DNA of 64,000 nucleotides from contig NC_049982.1 of the NCBI RefSeq assembly GCF_000003815.2, positions 21,114,695-21,178,694 on the forward strand. The letters run 5' to 3'. Made by a program: the position numbers and the translations under genes. The notes under the pieces are model-generated. The model did not search any database and had not been told where the DNA came from. It worked only from the letters and a program-made list of their open reading frames with translations. Numbering within the stretch: the first letter of the stretch is position 1; every line of letters begins with the position of its first letter. Shown in pieces: positions 21,755 through 47,102 of this stretch. This DNA comes from Branchiostoma floridae (taxonomy: Eukaryota; Chordata; Leptocardii; Amphioxiformes; Branchiostomatidae).

Positions 21755-24700
21755 ATGGCGACCAACACAGCGGCTGTCACGCCCAGAGTACTGCTATTGT
21801 TTACAGTCATGTTCTTTGCCACGAACATTGCTAAGGCAACAGGTAAGCTTTTAAAACTCTTCCTTGCCGTTGACTCCGTGCGCTTGTCTTTGACTTGGTA
21901 AGTTGAGTTGATACTTTCTTACGCAAATTACGGTAGTAATACGGTAGTAGTTCATAGTCCCATATGCTGTGTTGTGTGGCACATTCCACATATGTCAAGG
22001 CTAAACTGGTCCCATGCTTGCAGCGTGTTATGTCTGATAAAAGGGGAACTCGAGACCTAGCCTTCATAGTTGGGCTGTTGTATGGGCTTGTGTTACTAGT
22101 GGAGGGGGAGGGGCCAGGATTGTACTGAACATTTTCAGAATATTGCGTTCAGTCCAACTGTAACGGCTGAACAGTTCCATAGACAGTAAAACAGACGTCG
22201 ACTTTGACCACATTTTTGAGGCCACTACTAGTATACTTTGGACGGGACCGTCTCAGACCGTCTCACGTATGTTCCTTCCGACAAACGAAATCTTCCAAAC
22301 TTATCAAAAGGCAACAATCGATGGTATATCATATTACCATCGTGACAGAGCTACTTACGTCAGGACGATACGTTTCCTAGCTTTTCATCTACTCAATTCC
22401 AAAGTGTTTCTTAACTTGACCAACGTGAAGAGTGTTGACCACAAGCATATGATTGGCTAAGTATCAATTTGTTGCAGCCTTAGCGACAGATGAAGCGCAA
22501 TTTGCCCGAAGGCGTCTTGCCTCACTTAACAGCACTGGCCTTATTTTTTATCAACTTTTAATGTGTTAAAAGTCTCTTCTTTTCCGTTTCTCGTGTGCCA
22601 GCAAACGTGATACAGGACAAACAAGAGTTCGGAGACCTCATATCTCCATGAAATAGTCTGATTATGTAAATGATTTTCACATTTACATAATATATGCTTG
22701 GTTATATACACATTTAGATAACTCACACTGGTCACAATGTTGATTAATCGATTGCGCAATCATTTACCATTTAGAAGAATTACAGCACTTTTACATTAAT
22801 TATGCAAATTAGGGACGTATTTGCACCAGCCACAAACTACATATATATATATATATATATGACAGGTATTTGAGTCCTGCAATGGCAACTTGTGACACTA
22901 CAAATATAGATTTCCCTCATTAATTATGCAAATTAAGTGCCAGTTTGCATAATTTGAACTTTATTATGTACATCTCTGTCTAAGCTACCTACATACCAAA
23001 TATCATCTGTATTTGCCGTTCCCTTGTCCAGTTATCCTCCTTAGAAGAGTTTGAGAAATACGCCCCTGCAGTTCCAGAGCAAGCTGCTAGGGGACCCAAA
23101 CATGCACAACATATTCCTCACGTCACAAGCTATCTGCCACCAAACAATCAAGACCATAGGATATCCAGATCAAAAGATACAAAAAACGGAATTTCTGCTG
23201 CAGTACCAAGGTCACATACCAGGGGGCCCAAAATTGACCTTGACCTTTGTCTTCCCAACATTTACCCACATACCAAATATCATGGCAATCCGTCCAGAGG
23301 TTCTTGAGTTATGCTGACCACAAATATCCGGAAACACAAACACACAGACACACACACAGACAGACAGACACACCCACAACTAATCTCCATTTTTCATGGA
23401 GATAAAAATCCCATAAACTTCTTAGTAAGAGAAGTGTTTGACACTAACATCGGTGCAGATGTTGAAGCGTTCATCGTGTTCACACTGACAGAAATCTGCT
23501 AGGTTTAGGTTGGATCCGTCATCAGTTCTCAATTCTATAGAGTTGTAAGGTATTCTGTACTGTAGCCTTGATGTGTTGAAAGAAGAAATGAAGAGATTAG
23601 CCACTCATACAATGCTACTACGCACAACCCTAGTATTTATAAATGATACGTGGCGACGTGTCCTGAAGGTTTGTCTTTTACTACCGACATTCTGATATGA
23701 AATAGTAGAGAATATTTCATGGTACGTACTGTAACACCATTCTTATGGCCCAATATGAGAATGACAACCGTAAGACAGACGTTTGAAGTAAACACTGAGT
23801 CTTTTGAAACTACGTACTCTGAACAAGAAACAGATTCCCGCCTGTTAACGTCCTGTCACTGAGTCTGGGAGGATCTATAACAGTAGGGTCTACAGCAGCC
23901 TTAGGCTGACCAAGGACTGACTGATCAGTGCATGGTAAACTTTAAATGTTTTCTACAAATTTTAAGTTTTTTTGTTGTCGTGTGTTCTAGGGTATTGAAA
24001 CTGGTCTCTGTTTAGATTGCGTTCAAGTAGCTACAGTAGTTGTCAAGGTGAAATGTAGATGGTATGTACAATAGAGTTTAAATATTCACCACCATATCAG
24101 CCTGTTACCATACGTACCGAATCGCGAAGCACATGCGGTTCAGGGTTCAACAGGCTGGGTCGGGATCTTTCATTACAACAGCACACAACAATTCATTTGC
24201 ATAAATACCATCTAATTATATCACGCATAATGTGACGAGGCCCAAACCTGCACTACTTATTCTATGCCTCGAGAGCTATCTAACACTAACGTTAGAAGTC
24301 GCGAACGTACTGTGTCCAGAACTCGAGATATCAAACCCGGAAGTTCTGCTGCAGTACTGTAACAAGCCGATAGGGGGCCCAAAATCTAATCGTTTCCGGG
24401 TCTCATCAACACCTACCCACATACAAAATATCAATACAATCCATCCTGACCTTCTAGTAAGAGTTATGCTGTCCAGCTATAAAAAAGCAAAGACACACAC
24501 GCACACACATACAAACGCTACCGAAAACATAACCTTCTCGCGAAGGTAAGCAACATGTGTTGGTAGTTTATTCATTGCTACGGGGAATCTTCATGAATAT
24601 GTCATGCCGGCATGGCTGGTAATATCATACTCTGTATGGTTCACGTATCAACGGCCATTCCTCAAAGGTCATTGCACCGCGTACTCTGTAATCCTTAGGT

Positions 24701-27700
24701 TATCAAAATAACAACTTTAAGTCTGCGTTACTAGTTTCTAAGCAACACCGGCTTCTACTTCTATCATTTCTGAATAACAGATTATTGGATAAAGTGTCAT
24801 TGCATCGTCACGATAATTCCTGTAATCCTTAGGTTATCAAAACAACTGCGTTTACATTGTAGGTTCTAAGCAAAGCTGGCTAAATTTTAAGTGTAAACGC
24901 AATGAAGGTAACGCTTGGCAAAGTTTTGCCGCCCGTAGGGCATTGCGTTAATCATAAAATTCAGAAATTACAAAAATATGCCATAATACCTGAATCCAAT
25001 ACAGCGGAAAGCGTCATTTTGGACATGTAAAAGTCATTGATTATTCAAATCTAGTAGCCAGGCAGATCGAATATAAGCTTAAGGCTTCCATGGCATATTA
25101 CTCTTCAAATGGAAAGTGGCAGGCCTCGCAATATGATATAGCAGGTCATGCGAGCTAGCTGATCCCTCAGAGGATTACAACATCTTTAGGCGTGTCATCA
25201 CGGCTTACTGGGATCACGACACCTGAAGAGAAATGCCTGTCCGAGGAAGAGCCTGTTGATGTGTGTTCAGTAAAGTCTCTGATCTGTCCATGTTTGCTTG
25301 TCCAGCCGTCAGTGGGTGTCGCAGATAAGACGCCTCGGAATGGACGTTGTGATGATTTCGTTGGGAGTAACTGTCTTGTTGGTCACTATGAACGTTGCAG
25401 TAGTGGTCGGAGGTGAGGCCGGTTAGTCTTTGGTACCCTTCCAGAACGATTCCCTTGTGAGTTTTGCGTAGTGCGCAGTTGTATCAACTTCGAATTCACA
25501 TTCATCGGAGTCGGATGACTAGTCTCGCACAAGATGGTACATGTTCTTTCGCGGGAAATTTGTGAAACTGAAACAATTTGAGAAAATGACAGTTTTATAA
25601 GAGTAACTGTTATGTCAGTTTCAGGAACTGTGTGTCAGCTTCACATTTCACGACAAAGAACGGGTTCCAGTTGGTTCATGCTCTCCCTACTAGGCAAATG
25701 AAGCCAATGTGTTTTGTTTAGGGCAAGTATCAGAGCGTGCTGATTAGGTTGTGTATACCGGTAAAAGCCACGGTATATTTGCATTCATGTGAAACAGGCC
25801 TAGGCTGCTGCACTGAAACCTGGTCACCATCCTCCTCTAGTAGGCTTAGGGGTACTTTACCCGACCTAGTCTGCTAAGCATCGGCCAGTGTCTGCCAGTC
25901 TGTCTTTCTTGCGGGCCTTTTGAGTTTTCGCAGCGATGTAAACTAACCCAACCCCGTAAAAAAATCCCCGGCCTGCGCTGATAAACTGGGCGGGCCGGCT
26001 ACACTTTCAGCACGGTCGAGCAGATGGCATGGTTACCAGGCTGCTCTTAACGAATTGTCACATCCAACTGCCAGCTCTACGCGCTGATGAAATTTTCTAA
26101 TAAAGATGCCTCTACTTCATTTGCTGATTACCAGACGTCGTTTGGTAATGAGTGCTCAGGCTGAGTCTGTCCTGTCAATGCCCCTCAGGTCGTTGACCCT
26201 GAAACGTGCCTTCACCGTCCGTGACTCGCCGAAAGAAACACGATATGACATAAAGAAACACCTGAGATCCAGCTTAAGAACCGGGAACAAAGCAGCTGGA
26301 AGTGTGTGCTAAAGTGGGCCATAAGAAAACAAAATCCATAAATTTCTTTGCGGAAATACATCTATCTGATCGCTGAGGTTAGAATGTGGGGAAAATATCT
26401 TAATCCTGTAAAAAAGGTGTCCCTTTCTCGGGCCACCATTCACCACCAGTACGATGAGTGAAAGTGAAAAGCATCTTGCTATGCATAAACGGAGGAAAAA
26501 GACGCACAACGCCCATACATTCATTCTATGATTAGATTAGCTAAAGCCCTATGATTTCTTTTACAGAATCTCCTCAGGTCAAAAACGTCGCCATTCTACC
26601 TGGCGCCGTTCTTTATGCTGGAGAAACGGCGACCTTGTACTGCATCGGAAGTGGGGACCCCGCCCCTACCTTTAGCTGGTCCCGGCACAGCGGTGCCCTT
26701 CCGGCTGGTGCAGAGGTAGATGGGAGCAAGGCAAGTCTGAGGAACTTGGCAGCAGAGGACAGCGGCGTTTACATCTGCACGGTGGACAACGGCGTCGGAA
26801 GGGCTGCAACGGGCAACATTTCAATTGTCGTCTGTCCAGACGTGAGTTTTAATGTCTAAAACATTTTCCATCATATAACTTTCTTGTACAGCCTCAACAA
26901 TGGAAACTTGGTCGCACTGGTTAAAATGATGCAGTAAGATAATGAAGTATTCACTGGTCACTTATAAACTATGGTTCGGAAATCTGACATCACATTTGAT
27001 ATGTATCTATAATGACGAGCATATGTACATCTGTCGCACCACAGCTGGGGGACTGTGCCACTGCGGACAGAAATGAAAACTGTTTGTCTTGGGCCAAGAG
27101 GGGAGAATGCGAGAGGAACCCTGGGTTCATGAACAGGAACTGCCGACTTAGCTGCGGCATCTGCATTCCTGGTAAGCTGTCTACTCTCCAATGGTTGTTA
27201 ACACTCCTCAAAGGGAGATCTACGCATTGAGGACCTTCGGGAACTCGCTATATGTCCCAAAAGAGACCAGGCATGTTTTACGTAGTACTTTTGTTCCTTA
27301 TATTGCAGGTCTGCCACTGGAGTGCGTTCATCGAGGCCGAGGACGGGCACTGGACACCTGGGAGTGTAATGACGTATCGAATGTCCCGGATGACGTAAGA
27401 AGCACCATGTCATTGGACAACTTCTACCAGGTTGGTGTTGCAAGTTTGTAAGATTGCACCACACATTGTTATACCGAATGTTGCTATTTTGCTTCCTTTG
27501 CAGTTTGACGACACTGGTAAACTCATACTTATTTCACTTACGTTACACATCATTTTCTTTAGAAATACCTCCATGCCTACGGAATCCCTGTTCTTGGCTC
27601 TTCCATTGTGCCAGACGAAGCCATCCGGAGAGCGTGCTACGACGTGCTGTTTATGTTGGCGGATAGAAAGGACCTGCGAGATTCTTACTACAACTACTAT

Positions 27701-30700
27701 GGCAGGGCCGCCATCATGGCCGAAACTGAAGTAAACTTTCCTTTTTGCTTCCATGTTTCGCTTCTGAAAATTTGGCGGTGCCAAGTAGACAAAAAGTATA
27801 GTCGATGGTGGCGTTTTGTCAAAGAGAAGTTGATTTCTGTAATTCAACCGTGTTCTGTTGCTCTGTTACCACAGGTGACTCTGGATATTCCCGAACATTC
27901 AAATTTAGACGAGTCATACAACACGCGGGCCAGAGGCCTGGGTGCCACCGTGAGCAGACCTGTATCCACCGGGGCCGAGGAGAACGTGCTCTGCTACAGT
28001 TCAGACAGGTGATCAATATCATGGCTAGCGCTGTAAATGAACATAAAACATATCACACAGAAGAATGGTTAAAACTAGAAAGGTTTATTGTTACTCAAAC
28101 ACATTCATATCTATGTTTTCCAGTCCCTCCAGCTCTGTCAAGCCAGTTGCTACATTATGTAATAGAACACTACAGTGTGTATTGTACTTTACCAATAACC
28201 ATGGTGACAGCAGTATGACACAGGTCATTGGTCGTATTTGTTTTGAGAAGAAGAGGAAGAATATGCTCGCTTCTTAAAACATGCTCAATCGCCTCCGCCA
28301 CTGAGGCGTCACCAAAAGCAAATCAAGTAAATTTGAATGTGTCCATAAAGACTTAACAGCCAGGTACCAAAATACACTATGAAAAAGCTTCTCACACGTC
28401 CATTACAGTTCGTGAGTTGATGCTATCTGAAACGTAAACATCTAGCCGTGTAGAGGTATAAAAGTGCACGAAGAAATTATGTCTTAAATCATGTCTTCCC
28501 CCTCAGGTACAAGAGCGAAGACATCTTCCTGCACGAGTTCTCACACGGGATTGACCTGCTGGGAGCCCGACAGGTGATGCCGAGCTGGAGGTCCCGTCTG
28601 CAGGCGGCCTTCAACAGCGCCAAGGCCGCCGGGCTGTGGGCTAACACGTACGCTGATGACACCATTGATGAGTACTTTGCAGAAGGTAAGCTTTGTTACA
28701 ATGTATGGTTCAGCTTGTATAGGCCGCATAATGTTTGCATGAACCACATCCTTTGAGGCACTATCAATTGATGCGAGTGTGTGAATACAACTGAAACCAT
28801 TCGTCAACGGTTTCGTGCCAGATACCGTCCCGATATATCCTCTCATTTTCTGATAACATAAAGAGCCCCAAGGGGCGTCTAAACACACAGTCTGGTATCC
28901 ATCTCTGTTGTAGCTACAATGGATACCGGGCTATAAACTCTAAGCTAGTATTTTGTTATTCCTTTTTTTAACTGATGTTTAATTGTGCTCTTGTGTAAAC
29001 ATGTGTATGAAAACTTGGGGTGACGTCGACAGCAATGGGACGTCGCTAACGTAGTCTTGCCGTTCTACAGGTGTACAAGGCTATTTCGACGTGAACGCCC
29101 AAAGTCTCCGTCCTAACGGGATCCACAACCACGTGAACAACCGTACGGAGCTGCAGGAGTACGACCCCACCCTGTACGGGCTGGTGAAAGAGATCTTCCC
29201 CTGCGGAAACATTCTCGTCAAGCGATGCGATCCAAGTAAGTCTGTAAACGCACGAAGAAGTACCCTGGGTGTCAGACCGGACCGGGAGCCAGGGTATTCG
29301 GCGGCCTAAGGCAGTCTGCCCGCCGATCTAAAATTATCGCTATTAGAGTTAAGCCCGAAGGAGGTTTTCGCTGCCCTTTCCGGCAAAACTCTCTCGGGCT
29401 AAACCTCACAGGAGCGCTAAGTTAGATTGGCGGGCAAACTGCATTGAGCCGCCGAAGAAACCGCCCGCCTCCCCTGGGTATCGTCTGGTTCCAGGTAACG
29501 AAGAAGTAGCTGCCTTGCTTTGAAACTCTTTTGATGAAAACAACCTCCTCATAAGCAGCATCAAATTAGCAATGGACCACAGCATCTCCTATATCAAAAC
29601 ACTGGGTTTCGTACAGCATATTTTAAATCATATTTGCCAAAGATTTTTCGCATTGCCGGCTACCGTGGTAAACTGTGCAACCGAGGAAAACGTTTGCTAA
29701 TCGTTCACTGTGATAAAAAAGAACAACATTGTCAGCATTCATAGGGCTTGATGATGTGCAATGTGCCGGGAAACGAAGGGATACATCAGCTTTGTGATGA
29801 GATTACCGTACGGCAACAGCTTCATGATCACTAGAGTGTCCTTTCTGCCAAGTCTGTCTTTATACACTTGCCTCGAGCAAAACACTTCTTCGGTGTCCCT
29901 GAAAGCATTAAAGCATTAAAGGTGCCATCACTGACCTGAACCATTCATTACCCCGCCAACAATGCACGGATTTCACCTGCTTACACGAGTCAATCCCATG
30001 TGGTCTATACTCTAGAGTGCGAGTCCAGGCTGTTGCCACTCACCTATCTTGCAGGCTACTGGAAATGGCTTCAGTCCTAGGACTAGAGCCGTAAACGTTG
30101 TAAAGGCTACTGCTATGAGAGATATTTTCCACGTACATTGGAATTGTATAATGTTGAACATCCTGCACGTCCTTCAACGTGTATCCGGTAGACTAGAAAT
30201 GAATTCTTGATCTTCCTTTATCCTCCAGACTACCAGCTTACCAGCTTCCGGTTCAACTGCTTCGCGGAGGGCCGTCAGCGTGACGTCATCACCGGAAACA
30301 TGGCTTTTGGGATCACAGAGACACCAACATCCATGCGATCAATCACCATGGAAACCACGAGGACAGCTATGGCCACCGGGAGCACACCGCGTTTCGAGGA
30401 CATACAAACTACGGACAAGCCCATCTCCACAGGTAGGCCGTCTTCTATACTGTTTGTCTCCTTCTAACTGTTGCAACCCTAATGATTTCGTCACGAAATT
30501 TTGTGCATAACGTTATGACAGAACCAAAGATCCTATACTAGAGTGGACGTGTACACTATTTCAATTCTAGCGTTTGCTGACTGTCTCTGTGCTCTGTAAG
30601 CCTGGTCATGGTTCCAACAGACCAAGCGCATAGTGACGAATTGTGGGAACTATGTCAAAGGTGAAGGTCCCGGACTTGTAAACAGTTCTTGTCAGGAACA

Positions 30701-30886
30701 TATCAAGTACAAGTATACTTACAAACTTGTTTCCTTTATGCCTCAACGGCCTTCACATTTGGTAATCAATTATGTTCCGTTGCAGCCACCCTGGTGACGC
30801 CCCTGTCCATGGTCACACTCACGGCCATGGCGCTGGTGTCCATGGTCATCACTGCCTCCCTCCAGCCGGAACTGGGCATGGTTTAG
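21755..30886 (+). CDS. Gene A: secreted Ig-ShK protein with a gluzincin-like zinc-site domain
   Basis: Exons: 21755-21842, 26567-26841, 27045-27171, 27309-27430, 27563-27730, 27875-28008, 28507-28685, 29071-29235, 30229-30432, 30786-30886; 520 codons, all phases agree. Residues 1-29 are a signal peptide. 30-121 form an I-set-like Ig domain (LYC, then DSGVYIC). 122-163 are an ShK domain with its six-Cys spacing. About 164-440 form a large domain with HEFSH (314-318) and EYFAE (360-364), the HExxH plus downstream Glu layout of gluzincin metallopeptidases; this resembles ATLF/M34-type zincins in layout, by inference. 488-520 are hydrophobic and end QPELGMV, which suggests a GPI signal or a helix with a minimal tail. 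A likely role is a surface or secreted peptidase; substrate unknown. Tandem paralogue of gene B. Confidence 0.82.
22618..23408. mobile_element. Dispersed repeat with RTE/SINE-like 3' end (intron of gene A)
   Basis: The left end is 'agagttcggagacc' then 'tctccatgaaat'; the right end is 'atttttcatggagataaaa' after a CA/GACA tract. Before the tract stands 'tccagaggttcttgagttat', a phrase common at 3' ends of RTE-type LINEs and derived SINEs (my recollection). Relatives are at 24230-24548 and 50786-51890. An (AT)n tract sits near 22840. Confidence 0.6.
24230..24548. repeat. Fragment of the same CA-tailed repeat family
   Basis: It shares 'ttctgctgcagtac', 'gggggcccaaaat', 'acccacata' and a CA-rich tail with 23160-23400, and ends 'ccttctcgcgaaggta'. 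Diverged and 5'-truncated. Confidence 0.6.
25340..25412 (+). CDS. Alternative signal-peptide exon for gene A
   Basis: ATG at 25340 opens 24 codons plus one base: MDVVMISLGVTVLLVTMNVA, then VVVGG, up to the donor gtgagg. This is a hydrophobic signal peptide ending in phase 1, exactly what the Ig exon at 26567 needs. It lies only 1.15 kb from that exon, against 4.7 kb for the 21755-21842 exon. Splicing it in would give a 515-residue protein. It could be an alternative promoter, the main one, or the relic of a lost duplicate. Confidence 0.55.
28890..28932. repeat. Short foldback related to the 17948-18057 MITE
   Basis: 'gtctggtatccat' and 'atggataccggg' form inverted arms around a short loop in a gene A intron. 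Confidence 0.5.
29263..29497. mobile_element. 235-bp foldback MITE just inside a gene A intron
   Basis: Two arms of about 100 bp pair imperfectly ('ttcggcggcctaaggcagtc' against the inverse of 'gcattgagccgccgaa', and 'gcccgccgatctaa' against 'ttagattggcgggc'). The direct repeat acgaagaagta occurs on both sides (29252-29262 and 29498-29508), an 11-bp target duplication. It inserted only 27 bp after the donor at 29236. Confidence 0.82.
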
Positions 30887-31428
30887 TTCTTTTCACTTCA
30901 AATCACAATGCCTTATACTATGAATCTTCTGACGTTAACTGTACTAGGTCAAAGTTGTCAGCTGAAGGCCTTGGAGAGGTTAGAAAATAACAGTCATATA
31001 AAATGTTAATTCTACCAGCTTTCTAACCTGTGTAACCCGTTTAACGATGATCATATCGCTAGTAATGAATGTTAAGTGATAATAGTGCAATATTTTCATG
31101 ATTGTTTTAAGTAAAAGAAGTGATTCTTGTATTTTAAGATATTAGATCAATATTTATTAATGAACTTTATAACGATATGTCTATATTTGTACTTGTGAGC
31201 CCACGTGATTCTACATAATTACTAATGTGAAAACAAATATTCTGTATCTGTATCTATATAGCCGGTATAACCGCCATTCGACGTAACACACCAGCAAATA
31301 TTAGTATTAACATCGACATACAGGGTATGATTTTAACAAGTGAAATAAACAAGTGTGCAATGTTTCGTGTTAAAAGGCTAAATGTGTTATTTAATGTGCA
31401 ATGTGTGGTTCATATATCACAAGATTAG
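30887..31428 (+). other. Probable 3' UTR of gene A
   Basis: A/T-rich sequence after the stop codon with a candidate poly(A) signal aataaa at 31344-31349. No other feature seen. Confidence 0.5.
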
Positions 31429-33130: not shown

Positions 33131-36100
33131 ATGCCGATGACACAAATGTACAGCTTACCGAGACCCTTCTGGACTTGCCTACTGGTGATAGCGCTGTCAG
33201 GGACTGCCTTTACCCAAGGTAACATCCTTGTATTTTGTTTCTGATTCTGCTACTTTTGTGGCCGTTTGTTGCGGAAACAGTGACATCTTGTGAACCTAAA
33301 TAATTTGAGACGTTTTGATCTGTTCTGTGGCGCTGAAGGGTGAAATTTTTGTTGGCAACATAGAAAAGTGTAACATTACCAGAAACTGAGAAGTCTGCAT
33401 TTGCGTAGTAGAAATGGAGGAAGCCTAAACGGTAGCACCAGCTCAAAAAGAACAGAAAATAAGTCAGTATCGTAAATTTTTGCCACATAACTATCCCCGC
33501 CATTGCCCTTCCTTCATGAAGTGACCGACCCAGAAAGTTAGCGCAGATCTATGTGCTACCGTTGCGCTAAACAATTGTAGGTCTACATTTTGGTCGTCAA
33601 ATACGTTACATATCATACTAGTGCGGTGGTGTGTCGGTTGGCAATCTCGCTCATGGATCGTTCAGTAGGGATTTTGATCCGTGTGTATCTGACCGTATTT
33701 TGTGACCCGATATCTACCGGTATTGCTACGCGTTGCTTCCGATACAAGACATTTTAGCTCCCCGACCGCGGTAACTTACTCGGTCCTTACTTACTAGCTT
33801 ATAGACATCCTGCTGTCTTCCCATGGTTCAATGAAGTTCTTTACAATTAACTAGAGCAAGGAAAAGGCGATTGACTTAGATACTGAGGTGTACATGTGCG
33901 GTATGTTTTTCCTAAGTATTTGGCCTTGTCATTTTCCATTGCATTATACGCCACAATGTGCATACCGCCATGCACAATGTCGTTCATCTGTTTATGGTTT
34001 TGTGTTGCGTGTAAGAGATTCGGGTTACACCCAACGAGAACCCACGATGTAAACTAATTTTTCATATTTTAAAGACATTCCGACGTTATATTGTTCCCCT
34101 GTGGCGGCGGGCTTTGGTATGGTATCCATAGAGATATCGTAGAGGTAAGTACGTAGTTAGGGGTATTGTCTTATTTTTGGGTGACGTAGCTAGTCAATCT
34201 GCAATCGGATTAATTATCGCTAGAAGGGGCTGTTCACTGGTTTGGAAATTGCTTAACAGTAGGCTCTGCCGATCATCAAATGTACAAACAAGTTTGATCT
34301 AGAACTATGAACTAAGCAGAGGCTCCAATACTTTGGCTTTAATAGCTCAACTTAACTCAAGAGAAAAGTTATTTACGGGGAGACCTTGGTCTAGTCATCT
34401 TATCTAGGTGTCTTATCTTCCAGACACGAAGGTTTTCGGAGAATGGACAGTAAAGTTTACAGTACAGAACGCGGAATGTTGTAATTTAACGTTACCCAAA
34501 GAGTCTACACGAGTAAAGGTTTTAAAACCTTATCAGCTTTGGATAGATCGATAAACGATAGGATACTAATAATTCAAAATGGTTGGGGAAATTTTTCAAG
34601 AACGGAGGGGATTAACTGTACTCATTGCACCGTTATTTCAAACACATAGCATCAAAGTTTTATTTTATTTTATTTTTATTTACCTCTACTTTCATACAGC
34701 ATTAACTGTCGATGGTAGACTGAACGCTGTCGGTGTACGAAGAAAAAAATAACTTCACATTTTAACTTCTGTCTATCTCTTATGGTGGCTATTTTCTCTG
34801 GAAGTTTGTTTCATAGTCTTACTGTTGTTGGAATTGAAGTTCTCTTATGTCTGGCAGTGTGGGGGTCTAGAGTGTTCTTGTGCTGGAATGTATACTGGCG
34901 TGAAACCCGTCGCATCTCTTGGTGGTAGGAGACCATTCAGTAGGGCTGGTACCTCTCCAAAGTACAAACGTTGAAAAGGAGTTAAGGCTCCAAATTTCCT
35001 GCAATGATTCAGTGGTTGGACGCGTGCCTTGGTCAGAGCACCTAAGGAAAGTTTCATGATTTTGAAGGCTCTCCTTTAAATGGAGTCAAGCCTAGAAACT
35101 CAGTTTCACAAGCAGCTATCCATACACTAGGGGCATACTCCAATCGTGACCCCACCATTCTTTTTTACATGGTCGCTATTTGAATTGGCTTCAGGTAAGA
35201 CACCCAAGTAGGCCCAATCGTTTACCCACATCTACAGTCATTATCACTAGTATATAGTTCCAGGTTAGATCCTTATGAATAGTAATGCCCAGTAGCTCTA
35301 CCTCCTCAGACCAGTGGATGATGAGCGACTGATGGTTAACCGGTTATACTTTTACATTTAGCTGGCCCAAAATGAAGATTCCAATTCTTTGCGCAGCCTA
35401 GGATTTCAGGTAAATCCTTGTTTAGCTGCCAGAGTCCTAGATTGTTTGTTTCTATCATGCTCAGGGCTGAAGTGTCATCTGCATATAGAATAGCCAGTTT
35501 ATTGCACAAGTACGGTATCAATAAAATAGACGCTAAAAAGCAAGCTTAAGGACACTTTTGATATAACGCTAGGCTCATAAAATTCGAATGAAGGGAAACT
35601 GCTGCGAATGTAAGCTATCCCTTCATGCTTCCAAATGTAGCCATACCAGTAGAAGAAAGGCCATTGTCATATGTCTCGTAAAAGACGGGACAACCTGAAA
35701 AAAGGGCGTTTTGTTTGTTTTGTGTCATCACTAAGCCATGGCAACAACTAATTCGAACATACGAAAGAGTCTAAAATGCTTTATTCGAAAAGTCCCCAGG
35801 GGGTTGGATGAAAGACATGCGTCATTCAGTACATGGCGCAATGATCTCCGGTAGATCAGTACTAGTCACGGTACAGTGTTAAATCTACAGTGAATAACAG
35901 CAAGAAAACGAAATCATTTCTACACTTGCAATCATGCTTTGGGAATAGAATATCAGTACTAGTTAAGTTAAATGGTAGATGAAAAGAGCTATGTCTGTAG
36001 ACAATTGCAAGCAAATATAGGTTTGTTGCAAGCATTCTCATTCCACAAGAGAACCCAGACAAAGCAACAGGGTCAACAACCGAAAGCTTTACAATTATTC

Positions 36101-39100
36101 TTTGACCTAGGGTCTTCATGTGACCAGCCATTGTGAAGTTTTTGTGTGTTTGTCTTGTCAAGTAGAATAGATGTGAATATTACATTCTTGCTCATGCTGA
36201 AGACACAACATACGTTTTGTTCCACTATAGCCGGGGCGACTCAGTAGAAAACGTATTTACTTGTAATACATTAGACGTTGCTTTCTGTATAGAAAACAAC
36301 GTCTAATGTATTACAAGTTGATACACTAGAAATTGTGAAGCGTTTGCGTGCTTGTGTCTAGGAGCAGAACAACTAATCATATGAATATTAACTTAAACGG
36401 CAAAAAGGCAACTCACTTATAACTTTACCACAGGTCCAAAACAATGTTGCGGTAACGGAGTTTGCACTTTTAAAGCACAAAAAAAGGTCATGGCACCTTA
36501 AGTATATATAATTGTTTCTGTAGACAAGTGTCTACGTATGACGGTATGTCTCGCCATCTACTTACGTATAAGTTAAAATTAGGTTTACACGGCGGCATGC
36601 AGTTTCGTTAGGGACATATTAAGTCCATGGGAAAACATGAAGATTGTGATACCTGTAATTATCTATTTTTAAAAAATCAATTCAACAAAGAAAGTTTGGT
36701 CTTTCCCTTTTCCACTGATACCGAAGTGGTTAACATGTCATGAGTGTACTCCCGAAATTGTGTTGTAGTGGCTCCCGACATAGAGGTGATCTCTGCCTGG
36801 CCGTCAGCTAACCTGTACTACGAGGAGTCCCTGACCCTGACCTGCCATGGCGGCGGGGACCCCGCTCCGACCTACAGCTGGACGCACGACTCGGGCTCCC
36901 TCCCTGCGCGCGCCGTGGTGGACGGGAGCGCCGGCACGCTGACACTGGCGGATGTGACATACACGGACGGAGGGGTGTTCACCTGCACGGCGGACAACGG
37001 AGTTGGAACCGCCACGCTGAATATCACGGTGGCGGGGTGTCCTGACGTGAGTAGTACAGCCGGGGTAGTGTCTACTACTCAGTTCAAGTACTAGTCTGTT
37101 GTCTCGTTTCTAACAAAGGAGGTTAAAAAAGGAATTCTTTTTCAACCTCCTTGTTTCTAGCTACTGCGACTCCAAGGGGACAGCTATAGTGCAGCTATCA
37201 ATATCGGTACTTTTAGCGCTAACAATCACAGTGGCTGCAAGGTACTCTCCAAGCAGGGGTTGATAGGGAAAATCGTGATCTTTTTCTTCTTTTAAATGCC
37301 GTTTTCTTCTGTATTGGGGTTAGCTGACAGAAAAATAAAGGCATATATAACAAGAAAAAGGTCACGATTTTCCCAATTAACCTCTGCTTGAAGAGTAGGT
37401 GTAAGCCGCCTTGACCACGCTACAGAACCCCACCACGTGCACGCTACAGAACCCGACATAGACCTGTAATACGAGAGGCTTTTGTGCATAGATACGCAAT
37501 AACATTGTGTTTTATAACTATCATAGAAGAGTTCCCATATTTTGAACATCTGAATGCAACGGATAAATTCCTATCTTTTATGCGCCTAAATAAACTCTGT
37601 ACATCAAACACTATCTGTTCCTACATATACAGCTGTACAAAGAAGCGAGACCATCCTGTTAGCTTTAATAGCACCTTCAAATAGTTGAATTGTATCTTGT
37701 TGCTTTTCTGCATGTCGGTTATCATTGACCTGTACCTAGCCCGCCCGTCATGAATGTACAATAAAGGTCTTTCATTTTGTTTGTTTGTATACATGTATGT
37801 ATGTATGTATCTATGTCTATATCTATGTGTATATCTGTGTATATATAAACATTATATATATATATATATACATTATATATCTATCTATATCTATATGTAT
37901 ATATATATCTATATCTATCTATCTACCTATCTATATATATCTATATATCTATAGATATATCTATATCTATATGTATGTATGTACATATCTATCTATCTAG
38001 TATCTATATAGATATAGATATATATAGATATATTATATATAGAGAGATATATAGATACGTCGATGTAGGTTAGACATCCAGGTAATAAGATACGCCAAAA
38101 AACGAATGGCTTTGTTTCTTCTCCAGGTCTCTACCTGTCCTGACTCCAGCTCTAGCTGTCCTGGCTGGGCTAACAGCGGAGAGTGCGAGTCGAACCCAGG
38201 ATACATGCTCAGCAACTGTCGCCTGAGCTGCGGCGTCTGTTTCCCAAGTATGTCATAATATGGTGCTATAGACTGTGTTTAATCTCACACCATCCAACAG
38301 TCGCAGAAATTGTGCTCAATGATTATATTTTGATGATCTACTATGTGTTAAGCTATAAATATCCATACGAAAGTCAATATGATTGATATCATACAGTCCG
38401 TAATAGATGGTGATGTAATAGATCCGGAAGTCCATTTGTGATATGTTATCATGTTGTTGGTCCCACCAACATAGTGGAAGGGGCAGCTCTGAATGAAGAC
38501 GCAAAATGTCTGCGGATTGAATATGTACAGCTTGGTCTCGGAAAATAACGTTTTCTTACAGCTGGCACAATTTTTCTATGGTTTATCACCAAAGTGTAGT
38601 GTCTTAATGTGAAAGTTACATATCTATCTATCTATCTATATTAATACATAACTTTCACATTTAAACACCACAACAGGTTACTGAACAAAGCTATGCTAAA
38701 GCTGAGTCATGTAAGGCAAATCAAATTCCAACATTGAGAAAAGATGGACTCTAAAAACATCCAAAAGCTCTTTTCTATACATTCTGAATTCCTAATATAT
38801 TTTTCCCTCAGACTTAGGCGCTCATTGCACTGCCGTCCGCCGCGGGCGTTCCTGGGACACATGGGAATGCTACGACGTCACGACTGTCCCCGATGATGTG
38901 CGAACAGACCTTAATCTGGACACATCATTCTATCAGGTTTGTAGCCATACTGAATGCCAGATTTTACTAGTATTTCATATTTCAACTATTTCTGAACTGT
39001 CAGTTCCTTAGGATCTGAAGATCTGCACTGCAACATGACAGACATAACTGATTTCTTTGTTATGCAAACTAGAAATATCTGCACGCCTATGGTATCCCCA

Positions 39101-42100
39101 TCCTTGGCTCTTCTGCCCTGCCGGATGACGCCCTTCGGAGAGCGTGTTACGATGTGCTGTTCATGTTGGCAGACAGGAAGGATGTCCGAGACTCCTACTT
39201 TGACTACTACGGCAGGGCAGCCATCATGACCGAGTCTCAGGTGTGCTCTCCGTTTTGTGTCACTAAAGCCAATTGCTCCACCTAATCATTTCACAATTTT
39301 ACATATCAGTTGTTTTGTTGTGCATGGTGCAATAATAAAAAGGTCTCTGTTTGTCTTTGTTACTACATCATGTAACATCGACTATCATAATTCCACCAGG
39401 TGTCATTATATGATAATACCGCCACCTCAAAAAACGTTAGTATAGAGGTCTTCCCAAGATTGTCTTGAACACCGAATGTTAAATATAATATAATAATATC
39501 GGGTGTATTTGCAGCCAGTGCCATAGGCAGGTACCCAATGTGTTGAGTAATGAGGCTGATTAACGTGGTCGAGGCACCTCCTCGAGCACGGGACCCCCGT
39601 TTTACGTCACTCTCGGAGGACGATTTCGTGGAAAGTTTTGTGAGGCTACAGCAGTCCGGACGTCCTTGGTTGGTATCCTAGATGTCATACAATTCAGATA
39701 ATTAGGTGTTGAAGACAATCTTGAGAAGGCCTCTATAACAACGTTTTTTGAGGTGGCAGTATAATGGCACCTGGTGGAATTATTAGAATGTATGTTAGTA
39801 GCAATGCATTTGCTACCATGATGCTTTTCATTTTGTCAACTGACCTGTGTTCCTGACATCACTACAGGTTTGTAGATGAAGCTACAGCAGTTAGACTGTG
39901 CATGTGTTTTCACAGGTGACACTGGATATTCCCGAACATTCTAACCTAAATGCAAACCCGTACAACAACTACAGAGGCATTGGGGGCACCGTGAGCAGAC
40001 CCGTATCCTCTGGGGCTGAGGAAAACGTGCTGTGCTACAATACTGACCCGTAAGTATGAGGGTGTTCAAACTCTACAATCCCACCGCTGCCACCACATGT
40101 AGGGAATAAATGGAGACGTGCAGTCGTGTACTGTCTGCTTGCTTTGGTCGCAACTAAGCTTGGACAGTCCTGGCATCTGTCCTCTTTCTTCAATCATAAT
40201 CAAATACAGATGTGGGGTGGCCCTTGGTCATAGGACCACCTATAATTAAAGGACAGTCTTATTGAGCTTCCTGTTATTTCAGCTTGCGCCTAATACTCCA
40301 AATTACCTCCCATTGTAATTAATTTTGCACAGCAAAGGCCTTTCTCATTGTGCATCAGGTCTACCCTATGAGCATGTCTGTTTACCTATTACATCTTCAT
40401 CAATGCAAAGCAGCTGAAATGCTGGTTTGTATTTGCTGATGCTCACTTCTAGAAATGCTAAACCCCACTCTTGCTGTCAATGACTGCAGAGGAATCTCAT
40501 GCAGCCAACCAGTGTTTTGACCTCATGACTGATTGTTGTTTCTGTAACAGGTACAAGGTTGAGGACATCTTCATCCATGAGTTTGCCCACGGGCTGGACA
40601 TCCTTGGTGCCCGCAAGGTCATCAGTGATTTCCAAAGTCGCCTGCAAACAGCTTACGATGATGCACTGGCCAATGGCCGGTTTGCTAACACTTATGCTGA
40701 TGACACCAGGGACGAGTACTGGGCAGAAGGTAGGTAGAGATCAAATCTCCATCTTGTTAAGATAAACTGCCAGGTTCATTACGATTTTGGTATACTCATT
40801 TTGTGTTAGTCCTTGAAGTGTGACACTCACCACATCAAGATTAAGCTGCAGCTTACAAATAAGCCAACATACTTCAGTAGCTTCATGTTGCCATGGCTGT
40901 CAGATGAACTGTGGCATAGTGTGGTACAGGGTTACACTGCTATGTTATGACAATCCTATGCTCCAACACCCCTACATTCTGACACCCATGCGTTAGTGTT
41001 AGGATTACAGACTTTTTGGTGTCAGAACATTGGGGTGTCAAAACACAGGGGTGTAACCAGTGTAACACGGTACAAATTTAATGTAACATTCTGGATTTCC
41101 AAATCTACAGGTGTGCAGAGCTACTTCAATGTGAACCATGAGAGGGATCCGCCCGACGGAATCCACAACCACGTCAACACCCGTCCCGAGCTGCAAGCGT
41201 ATGACCCAGCCCTTTATGCTATAATAGAGGAGATCTTCCCCTGTGGGAACTTTCCTGTCAAGCGTTGTGAACGAGGTGAGGCAGACATTTTAGAAAAAAA
41301 TCTGTACCACACAGTTGTATGTAGACAAAAACAAAATTGGCCCCAGTGTAAAGGGAAGTTTAAATTTTCTTGGAATAGGATCGCATTTGCATCTTACGTC
41401 AGCATGAATCATTCTGATGAGTTGCACAACTTAGTAACATGTATGATCTTGACCTTCTACGGTAGGAGAAGCCTGTGGCACCAAACATGTGTATTTTTGT
41501 ATCATAAGGAGATCACGCAGGTGCAACTTCAGCAACTATAATGTTGAATATAGATGGCTCGATCTGTGGCAACTATTCACAAATACATTGGAGCGTGTAA
41601 AGATCCCTGGGGTGTATTGGAAAGAAAACTTTTGTTTCAGACAGCTACAAATTTTGTTTTATGTACACAGACTATGCTAGCTACACCTTGAAGATGGATT
41701 GCTTCTCGGAGAACTACCAGAGGGAAACTGTGGTGGGGACTGCCGTCTGGGGACAAACTTCCACAAGCACTGCTGCCACACAAGGTACTAGGACAATACA
41801 TGCTGTATACATGTACACCTTTCTGTGTGGAAATTGATACGTAGACTGTATATGTTACCGCAGTGTTAGCATTTTAATGACAAAACTGTCTGCAATACTA
41901 TAGGTACGCCTACTGTGAGCACACTGACAACACCTACAGCAAGCATTGCTCCACAGTCCACAGGTTTGAATTTTGTTTGTCTTACAACTTTTATATGCAC
42001 GGGATATCCCAAATGGTACATTGCACATATTTATTGCACTATAGACTGGCATGCACAACTAATTTTTTGCACGTCTAATTTGCATGATTGTGTGACATTC

Positions 42101-45100
42101 CGAGAACTTCACACACCTACATGTAGCACTGCACAGACTACAATGCTCGTGTTAATTCATAGAAGTACATGTAAAGGAGATGCACAATTTGGGTTTGGCA
42201 AACTTAAAAAGTTTGTCAACCATATCCAATCACCAACAAGGATGACCAAACCACAAAAGCCAACCATCCAATCAACCTTCACACAAACTAATCAGCAATA
42301 CATGCAACATCTGAAGATCTGTTCTGCAATAGGTTTGACTCCAACACTGTCAGTAGCCCAGTCATCTACTGCTGCTACATCATCAACTGTGACATCAAGA
42401 GCAACAACAAAAACACTGGCACGGTCCACAGGTTGGAATCTTGGTGCTACACATTCAGGTTCAGGGATACGGTGGCAAATATCAAGTGGTGTACAGCCTT
42501 TTATTTTTCTAACTGGTGAATCTTCACAATTATTGTTACTTTGGACCAGGTATTAGCACACTTTATGGTGCAGGTTTCTTCAAGGGTAGCCTCACCAAGG
42601 TGAAGTGCGGTGATGTTAGACAATATGGTCAACATGACCATCGTGAAATCGCTGTGAACGTTGACAGAACCATGAACTGTGTGAACACTTGTCTGCGATA
42701 GGTACAACACCAACTGTTGGGCAGAGTTCTACAGTCAGCACACCTACAGTTCTGACTTCAAGAGCAACAACGAGGACAGCCAGCACTGTGGCACAGTCGA
42801 CAGGTTACTTTTCTTCTACATCAATGGTCATCAGCACTGCTGTGAACCACATTTGCGTTGATTATACATGTAGTATCTTCTCCAGTCTACATGTTCTCTT
42901 TGTAAAGCTTTATTTAACAACCAAGGCAAGGAAAAGAGGACAGACAACAGCTTCCACGCTTTGTCTCAAAAATAATCTTTGGAACACTACAGGAATAGGG
43001 TGGCACTGGATTTCATCGTCATGTAGTGTAGGCATCAATGTTCATGCAGAGGCCATAGAATGGTGGTGTAACTAATCTCAGATACAGCTTTTTTGTTGTT
43101 GGTGTTTCTGGTGGCGATGGCAGCTTTTATGATGTTTAATAGTAGTGGCATTTCAGTTCTGTGCAAATCATCTAGGAACCTTTGGTTCCTGTTCTGGGAC
43201 TTAGAAGATTTTGAATGGCTAATTGATGGACATATGAACTGAACATTTGATCACTTGACTGTAATAGGTACATCATCAACAGTGGGGCAGACTCCAGCTG
43301 TAAGCACCCCGACGGTGGGGCAGACTCCGACTGTGAGCACCCCGACGGGGGGGCAGACCCCGACTGTAAGCACCCCGACGGTGGGGCAGACTCCGACTGT
43401 AAGTACCCCAACGGTGGGGCAGACTCCTACTGTAAGCACCTCGACGGTGGGGCAGACTCCGACTGTAAGTACCCCGACGGTGGGGCAGACTCCGACTGTA
43501 AGCACCCCGACGGTGGGGCAGACTCCTACTGTAAGCACCCCGACGGTGGGGCAGACTCCTACTGTAAGCACCTCGACGGTGGGGCAGACTCCAACTGTAA
43601 GCACCCCGACGGTGGGGCAGACTCCAACTGTAAGTACCCCGACGGTGGGGCAGACTCCAACTGTAAGCATCCCGACGGTGGGGCAGACTCCAACTGTAAG
43701 CACCCCGACGGTTGTGACTTCAAGGGCAACAACAAGGACGACCAGCACAGCGGCCCAGTCAACAGGTTATACACCTAGTGGTGTCCATAACACTGCACTG
43801 TAAACGTTGTACTTGTCGGTAATACCTTTGCAGCCACCATATATAACTCCAATGTGCACATTTACAAAGCTTCGCAAAAAATTGCAGCATCCAATCATCC
43901 AAATAATGGACCAAGCAGTCAATCAAATGAACCAACAACTCATACACGAACAGCCAAGTAATCTACAAACCAACCAAACAACTCACCAAACACTCACCTT
44001 ATCAAGCAATCAACTCTTCACATACAAAATCATCTGAAGATCTATCCTGTGGTAGGGTCTACACCTTCAGCTGCTCAGACATCTCCAGCAACAATGCCAA
44101 ATGTACTGGCTTCCAGTTTGACAACAAGCACAGCTCAGGCAACATTCATCCGGACCAGATTCACAAATATGGTGGCAGCTGCTTTTTGCTTCCACATAAC
44201 CACTTTGCTTGTGCACAGTGAATACATCAATGGCATTGTCAGGGGAAAACCAAAGGTTACAGTTTGTAACAATGCTGATGGTAGCCTGATGTAGTTATAT
44301 GCAGGTTTGCTGAAAGGTCTATGCGCTTGTATATATGCTGAGTGTGAACAGTTTTGAAGTAAGATGAATTGTTCAACCATCTTAATGGCTTTGTGACCAG
44401 TAACTGTTTTTTAAGGATTCAATTTTGGCAAATACCTAGCTCCTCTCCAGTGGTCAAGCCCTTACAGCTGTAGATTTCAGCCTGGCAAGAACTTGTGTTC
44501 ACCAGAGGGCAGAGACTATATGTAAATGAACAATCAGCTTCTGAACTTGTTCCTAATGCTGGCCATTCTCCATGGCACTAGTAGTATGTTGCATACCTTG
44601 GTTATAGGTGACAGTAATATATGTCACATTAATGTGTATGTGGCTGTCATGATTAGGAAAGACTTCATGACACTTTGTTGTGTCTGAATTCTATACAAAA
44701 CATCCAAAGTCATTCAAGGTGATGACCATCTGCACCATGTTCTAAGAACAAATTTAAAGCAGACTGTATTTGTGCCAAAGAGTTTTCTTGAACAAGATGG
44801 AGTAACCCTGTCCCTGGGTAAAGACTACACCACATCCTGATACTTGTTGTTTTTGCAAATCCCTCTTATGATCTGCCTGGAAAACTGGCTACATTAAACA
44901 TGAATCAATATAAATCTGTGCTTAGGTACAACACTGACTGTCGGACAGGCATCTTCTGTACGGACACCTACTGTTCTGACTACATCAGCAACAACACGTA
45001 CAGCAAGCACCTTGGGGCAATCAACTACAGGTTTTAGCCAAACAAATTTTTTCATCACAAAATTTGCTTTTATTTGCTGCATCCAGAACCAGGGTGGCAA

Positions 45101-47102
45101 GTAGCAACTGCTTGTAGTGAAGTAGGCTGTAGGACAGGCTATATGCAATGCCAGGATTTTGTTTCACAGTATGTAACGGTTACAGCAGAATCTTCATCTG
45201 CACTGATCACACGTCCCGTTTTTTTGCAACCGTTTTATGTGCACGATCGGACTCATTTACCACGGCAGCAGCAGATCACTGACGAATGAAAGCTTCTAAT
45301 GGTGTTTTGCTTCACAGCTATGTTGGGATAGGAAGCTATTTTGCATCTTTATTCATTAGTGTTGATTTAAACGTCGGACAGGAACAGGTACAGCTGGAAC
45401 TACATCAACGACAGGACACTCAAGTGCTGCTGCCACGTCCACACAGCCCAGTACCCCATTGTCATCAACTGCAGGGGCCGCATCCAGCTCACCATTGGCA
45501 TCAACTACAGGGACCATGTCCAGTACCCCGTTATCATCAACTGCAAGGGCCATGTCCACAGCCTCATCAACATCAACCGCCATGCCAGCATCTACAACTG
45601 CAGCTGCTACACCTTCCAGGATCAGTACAACATATCCGACAGGTTGCTTCCAGAATTTTCTGCCAAACGAAGAGCAGCATGTCTGTCAAATCCTTGCTTC
45701 AAAGATGCATGTTGCGATTGTCAGTCTGCAGTGTCAGTGCACCTGTATTCTGTACAACCAAAATGAGGTCACGCTGTATGATGTGCTTTGCTACACCATG
45801 TGCAAATGTACACAAGCCATAGCTTGCATGTTTTTTTTTTTCAGTATTTAAATGTTAGAAGTGCCATAAGTAGTATCTTCATCCCAGGTCCTTTCAAAAT
45901 GCATTGTCCATGAGAAGGTGGCTTTTACAATAGGTGTTGCATTATTTAGTGTAAGACTGTCCAACAGTACCTGCATGTCCTATTTGCCTCCATGTTGCAA
46001 GCCTTAGGTCAAACCTTCCATAATGCCTATTGCAATACACTAGACCTTTTTTCAAGATGGCTTTTGCGATGCATGCGGTGTCTTTGGTTTATATCAACCA
46101 TAGTTTAATGTGAGCTGGCTAGAAGCAGAATGAACCTTCATGCTGCAATATGTTCAAGAATCAACTTACAGTAAGTTACACAGACTTTTGGTCTATGATG
46201 GTCTATTTCGATGGATGTGATACACTCTGTGACTGACAGCATTTGATGACAAGATCTGCCGAGTTCTCAAACACTAATATGAGAATATGAATTTTTCCCA
46301 AAGGGTGACTGGACAACAATCACACAAAGTGCTACTCGTAATGGCTATGCATTATGTACACATGTAACATGCTGGTACACTTCTGCCCACAGGTTCAGCT
46401 GGGACTCCAGGAACTGTCAGGACCACGCCTACCCTGGTCACCAGACTCGTCACAACTCTCAACGCTACCGAGAGTGCTCCAAGTCAGTAAACACTTCAAA
46501 CAGCAAGGCCCCCTTTCTGCTAGGCAGGAACTGCTGATTGACAGTACAGCAAACAAAATTGGATTTGTGTAATCCTTGATTTCATAATTGGAATATGACA
46601 CAATATTGAAGTATGATTAAAGAGGCAACAAAACAGAAAATGCAGACAAAAAAAGTTCTTTGTCTATGAAATTTGTTGAGCAGTCTGTCAAATCTTTGAT
46701 CACTCAGCAGTTGCAGGCTCTAGTGGGGTGTTACTGTGGTATTTGTTTGATTCATTCACAAATTTCTTACATGTAACAAGACCTGATGTGAAAGATATAC
46801 TTCTCATACCTGCACATATACGCTCACACCTTGTCTTTACGTGCCCAATAACCATAGATAAATCCAATTCTTAAATATTGAGTATGTGCTGTGCTAGGAT
46901 ATTTTCTTTACAATTGCAGTCGAATGAAGCTGATGCCAAATGTTTGTCTCCCTTCCCAGAACCACCAGGAACTGACGTCGCCATCATAGTGGCTGCCGTG
47001 CTGGGTAGTGTGGCATGTTTACTGGGGATTGCTGGTGCAATATGGGCAGTCCTAAAGTGTATGGCTGCAAAAACTGCTGTGGTCGCCATCAAACCTGCCT
47101 GA
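33131..47102 (+). CDS. Gene B: Ig-ShK-gluzincin-like membrane protein with mucin stalk
   Basis: Exons: 33131-33218, 36769-37046, 38127-38247, 38812-38936, 39073-39240, 39916-40049, 40551-40729, 41111-41275, 41671-41784, 41904-41963, 42333-42431, 42702-42803, 43268-43765, 44926-45030, 45388-45642, 46393-46482, 46960-47102; 907 codons, in phase. Order: signal peptide (1-29), Ig (30-122), ShK (123-162), zinc-site domain with HEFAH (314-318) and EYWAE (360-364), both at the same residue numbers as gene A, then a Thr/Ser/Pro stalk (about 445-860), one helix (867-892) and a 15-residue tail. Five of the first eight exons equal those of gene A in length (88, 168, 134, 179, 165 nt); the others differ by 3-6 nt. 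A type I surface protein holding a putative peptidase away from the membrane is inferred. Catalytic activity is not proven. Confidence 0.82.
34655..35560 (-). mobile_element. Decayed LINE, reverse-transcriptase fragment (minus strand)
   Basis: A minus frame at 35521-35336 contains the RT catalytic box in [13 protein letters not shown] and then [13 protein letters not shown], typical of non-LTR retrotransposon RT domain C/D. Downstream, in shifted frames, are LEYAPSVW-like and LLGI-like motifs. The end is an (AATAA)n-type tail, seen in plus as 'ttttattttattttattttt' near 34660. Several stops and shifts: dead. It lies in intron 1 of gene B. Confidence 0.8.
36259..36318. repeat. Perfect 22-bp inverted repeat (hairpin)
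   Basis: acttgtaatacattagacgt plus 'tg' (36259-36280) is exactly inverted at 36297-36318, with a 16-nt spacer. No TIR consensus or target duplication was seen. It lies 450 bp before the Ig exon of gene B. Confidence 0.85.
37105..37146. repeat. Short hairpin after the Ig exon of gene B
   Basis: 'acaaaggaggttaaaaaagg' and 'tttttcaacctccttgt' pair across 'aattc', about 60 bp downstream of the donor at 37047. Confidence 0.55.
37244..37397. mobile_element. ~150-bp foldback element
   Basis: Arms of about 50 bp: 'ctccaagcaggggttgatag', then 'ggaaaatcgtgatctttttc', inverted at the right as 'gaaaaaggtcacgattttcc' and 'cctctgcttgaagag'. No clear target duplication. Confidence 0.7.
37515..37790 (+). 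mobile_element. Second decayed LINE 3' end
   Basis: The frame reads [15 protein letters not shown] and ends after a few dozen codons; it aligns with the 4139-4985 element (TTYFKRLDATDRF). Both have a 3' end of the type 'tgtacaataaaggtctttca'. 5'-truncated fragment in an intron of gene B. Confidence 0.65.
37790..38060. repeat. (TATC/TATA)n microsatellite
   Basis: Long runs of gtat, tatc and tata steps. A copy of the 'gatgtaggttagacatccag' dispersed repeat follows at 38061-38105. Confidence 0.95.
38600..38680. repeat. Foldback around a (TATC)n tract
   Basis: 'aatgtgaaagtta' and 'taactttcacatt' are inverted around tatctatctatctat. The inverted similarity extends imperfectly outward to 'gtgtagtgt' and 'acaccacaac'. 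Confidence 0.6.
39386..39786. mobile_element. ~400-bp TIR element in an intron of gene B
   Basis: Terminal inverted repeats of about 85 bp begin 'taattccaccaggtg' and include 'gccacctcaaaaaacgtt' and 'caagattgtctt' on both sides in inverse order. The middle (39513-39690) is the reverse complement of the repeat at 9655-9905. No ORF. The target duplication is not clear. Confidence 0.8.
40900..41065. repeat. Imperfect inverted repeat before exon 8 of gene B
   Basis: 'acattctgacaccc' and 'ggtgtcagaacattggggtgt' face each other, with outer arms 'gttacactg' and 'cagtgtaac'. It is probably a small foldback element. Confidence 0.5.
43285..43713 (+). repeat. Coding VNTR: 13 units of 33 bp
   Basis: Thirteen uninterrupted units encode [11 protein letters not shown] with minor changes (A for T, G for V, S for P, I for T) at residues 551-693 of gene B. 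The array sits inside one phase 1-1 exon. Almost all substitutions are conservative or silent. The period is a multiple of three and every frame lacks stops, so long antisense frames also exist; these are shadows. Confidence 0.95.
44056..44139 (+). pseudogene. Dead stalk exon of gene B
   Basis: After an acceptor ('tcctgtggtag') the phase-1 frame reads [20 protein letters not shown], then SLTTSTAQ, matching the other stalk exons. Where they end 'acag|gt', this one has 'ctcaggcaac': no GT donor in the right phase. It is probably skipped. Confidence 0.5.

Follow-up and report, generated by a model that had tools for sequence, protein, structure and literature searches.

Two neighbouring genes with Ig, ShK and zincin domains

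The stretch of Branchiostoma floridae DNA analysed here (64,000 nucleotides of contig NC_049982.1, positions 21,114,695 to 21,178,694 of the forward strand; hereafter the window) contains two adjacent plus-strand genes, referred to as gene A and gene B; all positions below are those of the window unless a contig or a bacterial locus is named. Both genes join an Ig domain and an ShK domain to a large domain with an HExxH motif, which we call the zincin domain. They probably code for membrane-tethered extracellular zinc endopeptidases with an M34-like (clan MA) fold and catalytic set, the catalytic domain belonging to a distinct family, frequent among bacteria, that was joined to Ig and ShK modules in the animal lineage.

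Gene A, re-spliced from the DNA, consists of 10 exons (21755-30886) and encodes 520 amino acids. Exon 1 (21755-21842) provides the start codon and, judged by eye, a signal peptide, and ends in phase 1 at a GT donor. Exon 2 (26567-26841) codes for an Ig domain that recurs in the paralogues (Pfam Ig_3, 4.5e-10, 40.3 bits against a cut-off of 30) and exon 3 (27045-27171) for the ShK domain (Pfam PF01549, 1.2e-8, 35.8 bits against a cut-off of 20.9). The zincin domain occupies exons 4-8 (27309-29235, comprising 27309-27430, 27563-27730, 27875-28008, 28507-28685 and 29071-29235) and is homologous to 80 bacterial domains. Within it lie the HEFSH motif (28532-28546) with the predicted zinc ligands His314 and His318 and the predicted general base Glu315, the predicted oxyanion residue Tyr353 (28649-28651) and the predicted third zinc ligand Glu360 (28670-28672). 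Exons 9 and 10 (30229-30886, comprising 30229-30432 and 30786-30886) code for a Cys-containing tail, a Thr/Ser-rich stretch and a C-terminal hydrophobic segment followed by the stop codon. The hydropathy peak falls in residues 489-514 and almost no tail follows the hydrophobic segment; by eye and by hydropathy this C-terminus appears glycosylphosphatidylinositol (GPI)-like.

Gene B spans 33131-47102, comprises no fewer than 15 exons and, as modelled, encodes 842 amino acids. Exon 1 (33131-33218) includes the signal peptide, again recognised by eye, and offers two in-frame start codons, ATG at 33131 or 33137. The Ig domain (exon 2, 36769-37046; Ig_3, 4e-13, 50.1 bits) and the ShK domain (exon 3, 38127-38247; PF01549, 5.7e-10, 40 bits) exceed the same cut-offs of 30 and 20.9. 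The zincin domain (exons 4-8, 38812-41275, comprising 38812-38936, 39073-39240, 39916-40049, 40551-40729 and 41111-41275) is identified by homology to gene A and to the bacterial domains and contains the conserved HEFAH (40576-40590) and the predicted third-ligand Glu of EYWAE (40714-40716). The tail region (41671-45642) opens with a Cys-containing exon (41671-41784) and continues with phase-1 stalk exons at 41904-41963, 42333-42431, 42702-42803, 43268-43765 and 45388-45642; a possible extra stalk exon at 44926 lies outside the 842-residue model. The stalk amounts to 347 amino acids (Thr 33%, Ser 17%, Pro 11%) and the last exon (46960-47102) codes for a transmembrane helix (mean hydropathy 2.7 from residue 802), a short tail and the stop codon. 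One stalk exon carries an in-frame 33-base tandem array at 43282-43712 (13.1 copies, 93% matches), whose copy number may differ among individuals.

All junctions of both models are GT/AG. Exons 1-8 measure 88, 275, 127, 122, 168, 134, 179 and 165 bases in gene A and 88, 278, 121, 125, 168, 134, 179 and 165 bases in gene B, and end alike in phases 1, 0, 1, 0, 0, 2, 1 and 1. The original prediction, made from the DNA alone, had described two adjacent same-strand genes with signal peptide, Ig, ShK and a large domain, the first eight exons matching five times in length and every time in phase; re-splicing reproduced all of this with gene B started at 33131. HEFSH/HEFAH and EYFAE/EYWAE are present in both proteins, but their placement at identical residue numbers, also claimed there, depends on the start codon of gene B: 314 and 360, as in gene A, are obtained from ATG 33131, whereas ATG 33137 gives 312 and 358. 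Both the identical numbering and the match in exon 1 length thus depend on choosing 33131. The two zincin domains are 67% identical.

Family, fold and active site of the zincin domain

A direct sequence search of the gene A domain against solved structures gave chance-level matches only, and it took a family profile search to reveal the resemblance to ATLF-type structures. The structure was modelled for a bacterial homologue, L007 (52% identical), rather than for A or B, whose coding sequences are interrupted in the DNA. The L007 model has high confidence, and among the 50 structural matches listed by Foldseek the best solved ones are the Pro-Pro endopeptidases (PPEPs) and anthrax lethal factor; the predicted structure shares its fold with the catalytic domain of lethal factor (M34/ATLF). 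The gluzincin layout and the ATLF resemblance suggested by the original prediction are therefore borne out by the profile search, the profile-profile alignment and the structural model.

The family also resembles the M90 peptidase MtfA. In profile-profile comparison M90 reached 95.5% with the bacterial family and 93.1% with the animal one, HExxH and E[FY][FW]A being in register, and 53 of the 80 bacterial domains matched the M90 Pfam family at E <= 1 (best 5.5e-7). The profile sets comprised 20 of the 21 loci from the M90 search and 14 of the 17 from the ATLF search (L131, L142, L144 and L148 were left out); the latter set is heterogeneous and includes rows that resemble M90. The M90 cut-off (PF06167, 26.2 bits) is not reached by gene A (11.3) or gene B (9.5). 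The spacing from the second His to the Glu differs as well: of 20 M90 rows, 18 conform to the pattern and 10 of these have a spacing of 57, against 42 in nearly all rows of our family. No M90 structure is present among the 50 Foldseek matches listed for L007, an absence that is no test of fold. In the planctomycete protein L040 (4692-6473) the family domain is followed by a C-terminal second domain with HELAH...EFFAE, from which the best M90 match derives; the whole protein passes the ATLF model PF07737 with 37.6 bits in two stretches. NCBIfam has no family for the domains of genes A and B, and its most frequent match to the 80 bacterial domains is TIGR04267 (7/80, best E 1.1e-4). A dedicated model for the bacterial zincin family was found in neither Pfam nor NCBIfam.

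Conservation was evaluated in an alignment of 89 rows, nine animal and 80 bacterial. Both His and both Glu are present in all 80 bacterial rows and the Tyr in 78, while among the animal rows His314 is kept in seven, His318 and Glu360 in eight, and Glu315 and Tyr353 in all nine. All five positions are intact in genes A and B and at five other loci (including C7, which has a frame break elsewhere). Tyr precedes the third-ligand Glu by seven residues in every row, the spacing between the second His and this Glu is 42 in 87 of the 89 rows, and His383, Asp396 and Glu364 (gene A numbering) are invariant. Five Cys positions are enriched in the animal domains: 169 (7/9 animal and 0/80 bacterial rows), 183 (9/9 and 1/80), 229 (9/9 and 7/80), 409 and 417 (8/9 and 0/80 each). 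Such extra cysteines are as expected if they form disulfides in an extracellular animal protein.

Two other assignments were considered and rejected. Metzincins (astacin, ADAM, MMP) have the motif HExxHxxGxxH/D, which is absent: in gene A HEFSH is followed by GIDLLG. Astacins and MMP23 are ShK-bearing animal metalloproteases and are like the products of genes A and B in combining ShK with an extracellular zinc protease, but those are metzincins and A and B are not. The M60-like gluzincin motif is HExxHx(8,28)E (PMC9266454), and the 41 residues between His318 and Glu360 fall outside this range.

The zinc of PPEP-3 is coordinated by His153, His157 and Glu197; Glu154 serves as the base and Tyr190 as the oxyanion residue (PMC12828418). 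The counterparts in gene A are His314, His318 and Glu360, Glu315 and Tyr353, and the Tyr-Glu spacing is common to our family and PPEP-3. An HExxH motif, a downstream Glu ligand and a Tyr seven residues ahead of it are thus arranged as in M34/ATLF when compared with the PPEP-3 numbering. PPEP-1 (Zmp1), PPEP-2 and PPEP-3, all of M34 type, show 13-18% identity over the aligned parts (19 PPEP rows). They differ from our family in their glutamate tandem: the residue preceding the third ligand is Glu in 2/9 animal and 18/80 bacterial rows and Asp in both A and B, and the resemblance to PPEPs therefore does not imply Pro-Pro specificity. A further difference is that the animal proteins have Ig, ShK and a membrane anchor. 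Compared with anthrax lethal factor, A and B are devoid of further toxin domains in the Pfam scan and are predicted to be tethered extracellularly.

Paralogues in the genome and relatives in bacteria

A search of the same assembly (513 megabases (Mb), 431 contigs) with the gene A domain gave 43 exon-level matches, corresponding to at least nine gene-like loci, that is A, B and seven more, and to a single-exon match on C14; this count is a lower bound. Each of the nine loci has the zincin domain divided into five corresponding pieces. Six of the loci (A, B, C11a, C11b, C3a and C3b) have the order Ig, ShK, zincin; C9 has ShK, ShK, zincin, C4c has zincin, ShK, ShK, and neither Ig nor ShK was detected in the flanks searched at C7. 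One zincin exon of C7 (near 25.526 Mb) is read in two frames, which may reflect a pseudogene or an assembly error. Both His ligands and Glu360 are replaced at C11a (contig C11, near 1.381 Mb) and the first His at C3b (contig C3, near 16.167 Mb), with the five pieces kept; judged by these residues, C11a and C3b probably encode pseudoproteases.

Divergence was estimated pairwise by the Nei-Gojobori method on concatenated exon rows, leaving out split-codon residues everywhere and, in C7, the beginning of one exon, which is read in another frame. Gene A is nearest to C9 (86% identity, synonymous divergence Ks 0.38, ratio of non-synonymous to synonymous divergence Ka/Ks 0.20), whereas synonymous sites between A and B are near saturation (68% identity, Ks about 1.9). 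Gene B is closer to C11b, C11a, C3a and C3b (73-75% identity) than to gene A. The tree groups A with C9 (support 100/98) and B with C3a and C3b (96/90). The proximity of C9 to A and these groupings indicate that A and B are an old pair within a dispersed family rather than a fresh tandem copy. Of the tandem duplication originally proposed, adjacency and homology stand, but a simple recent event is not supported, given the A-B Ks and the grouping of A with C9.

Among plasmids, tblastn returned 53 records (51 Rhizobium, one Gemmatirosa and one Paraburkholderia), with E-values down to 4e-28 among the matches listed. A scan of genome contigs confirmed at least 487 of 591 candidate stretches, of which the best 80, up to 52% identical to gene B, were used for the alignments and the tree. 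Many of the bacterial proteins have, by eye, a secretion or lipoprotein signal at the N-terminus. Prevalence was sampled with the family profile at E <= 0.001, each sample including its centre genome. In the phylum of the L050 genome (a planctomycete) 40 of 149 genomes had a match, 28 of them with E < 1e-70; the corresponding figures were 8 of 148 around L078 (Bacteroidota; two below 1e-40), 5 of 140 around L007 (labelled Myxococcota; two below 1e-70) and 3 of 200 around L008 (Alloalcanivorax; one below 1e-70). The weak matches largely represent a distantly related group that aligns mainly around the active site. By sequence, the zincin domain is a widespread bacterial family, often found in apparently secreted proteins. 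No match to it was found in phages, nor a relative in two pattern-based scans of viral contigs, and a phage origin was rejected.

The family had been put forward as undescribed. Its Ig-ShK-zincin join does recur at six of the nine loci, but the catalytic domain itself is no chordate novelty. We found no description of an Ig-ShK-zincin family in the literature searched, where subscription papers were mostly beyond reach, which does not prove that none exists. While neither the fold nor the chemistry is new, the animal Ig-ShK form and the wide bacterial distribution of the family appear undescribed within that literature. An animal surface-protein family is thereby linked to a protease fold otherwise familiar chiefly from a toxin and from enzymes that bacteria secrete, and its catalytic domain is part of a large bacterial family for which Pfam and NCBIfam yielded no dedicated model.

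Ten of the 80 bacterial proteins, picked for extra length, were scanned for fused domains, each partner exceeding its own cut-off in one or two of them: VHL beta (L010), cyclophilin (L022 and L058), sulfatase (L023), Sortilin-VPS10 (L031), bacterial Ig-like (L008) and dockerin (L035). The zincin is thus a mobile module in bacteria too.

On Rhizobium symbiotic plasmids, zincin genes (L002 5842-6756, L003 3842-4750, L004 1336-2244 and L006 5001-5639) are found close to nodA, and most of the four loci viewed also have a LysR or nodD regulator nearby. They are annotated as hypothetical or as glycoside hydrolase (e.g., WP_010034735.1 on p42d). Their products belong to the same zincin family (33.6-38.4% identity among the rows listed) and differ in being bacterial, with no Ig or ShK seen. 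Two of the rhizobial loci each have one match to a nod-box-like pattern (2-3 mismatches), neither of them clearly directed at the zincin gene, and no nod gene is present within the stretch viewed at the Paraburkholderia locus L005. These homologues near nodulation genes and the likely pseudoprotease paralogues provide two more routes to function.

Proposed function and origin

In the mechanism we propose, zinc would be bound by His314, His318 and Glu360, with Glu315 acting as the general base and Tyr353 as the oxyanion residue. The Ig and ShK domains, N-terminal to the zincin, would bring the enzyme to its place on a surface or on a partner protein. The gene A protein would be tethered by its GPI-like C-terminus and the gene B protein by its Thr-rich stalk and transmembrane helix, holding the active domain above the membrane.

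Several observations weigh against this proposal. Foldseek gave only one match with E <= 0.001, and the query-normalised TM-scores to PPEP-2 and lethal factor are 0.43-0.48, so the kinship to these proteins is distant. The structural model is that of L007, neither A nor B, and its ligand geometry is predicted. In the Pfam search, which placed Ig and ShK above their cut-offs, the ATLF model PF07737 scored 12.1 bits for A and 15.0 for B, below its gathering cut-off of 27.4, and for this reason the proteins are filed as M34-like rather than as M34 members. The gene models come from DNA alone and protease activity is a prediction; the Ig and ShK domains may serve other roles. With zinc ligands lost at two of the nine loci and a frame break in one C7 exon, part of the family is, as far as the residues tell, not or no longer enzymatic. 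The bacterial origin, finally, relies on a 91-row midpoint-rooted tree without other eukaryotes.

That unrelated adjacent exons had been joined by artefact or chance would be conceivable for models spliced by hand from DNA alone, but we give this hardly any credence. Genes A and B have an exon-intron structure with open frames, their domains are 67% identical with equal exon phases, and the same domain order and strand recur at six loci; this repetition in paralogues is the strongest answer to the doubt. Another alternative is that the zincin is mainly a binding or decoy module of an adhesion-receptor family, catalysis being secondary or lost. The ligand losses at C11a and C3b, where the five pieces and the Ig-ShK-zincin order persist, agree with it, as do Ig, ShK and a mucin-like stalk, which are adhesion-type modules. 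Yet the active site is complete at seven loci and non-synonymous change between A and C9 is low, which makes this alternative unlikely. The proteins could also be proline-directed ectoproteases whose targets, for example collagens or the stalks of mucins, are rich in proline or hydroxyproline. A Pro-Pro endopeptidase is the closest fold to the L007 model among the matches listed, and some bacterial relatives are fused to a cyclophilin prolyl isomerase or to VHL beta, which binds hydroxyproline; that these fusions hint at proline-rich targets is speculation. Since the glutamate tandem is not conserved, lethal factor combines this fold with a different specificity and the fusion-scanned proteins were chosen for their length, we consider a proline-directed activity rather unlikely. 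Membrane-tethered zinc endopeptidases remain our preferred reading of A and B.

The tree from which we judged the origin of the animal domain combines nine animal rows, all from this genome, the 80 best bacterial hits and two plasmid proteins, the latter with very long branches. All animal domains cluster together (100/100), with one Myxococcota and one Actinomycetota sequence as their neighbours (97/87), within a mixed, otherwise bacterial group (96/91). This topology fits a single gain from bacteria. The zincin could instead be an old eukaryotic domain retained in few animals. The identical five-piece split at all nine loci speaks for such retention and the long animal stem branch (0.95) allows it, whereas the nesting of the animal group among bacterial sequences does not favour it; we regard an old domain as possible, if doubtful. 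Similar domains may also exist in some fungi and invertebrates. For the full scenario the chances seem about even: an animal lineage would have taken up a bacterial zincin of lethal-factor/Pro-Pro-endopeptidase fold, added introns, cysteines, Ig, ShK and anchors, and expanded it to nine or more loci, pseudoproteases among them, as a domesticated ectoprotease family.

Downstream of gene B, a minus-strand open reading frame at 53255-53983, whose residues 7-231 align with COPS4 chains of solved structures (E 3.3e-125), codes for COP9 signalosome subunit 4, and a frame at 52583-53209, partly N, appears by eye to continue it. The introns, the COP9 signalosome neighbour and the length of the contig (C4, 34,244,393 bases) make bacterial contamination of the locus unlikely. 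A sulfotransferase exon is located on the plus strand at 58077-58382 (Pfam Sulfotransfer_1, 1.1e-5; 25.4 bits, above the cut-off of 22).
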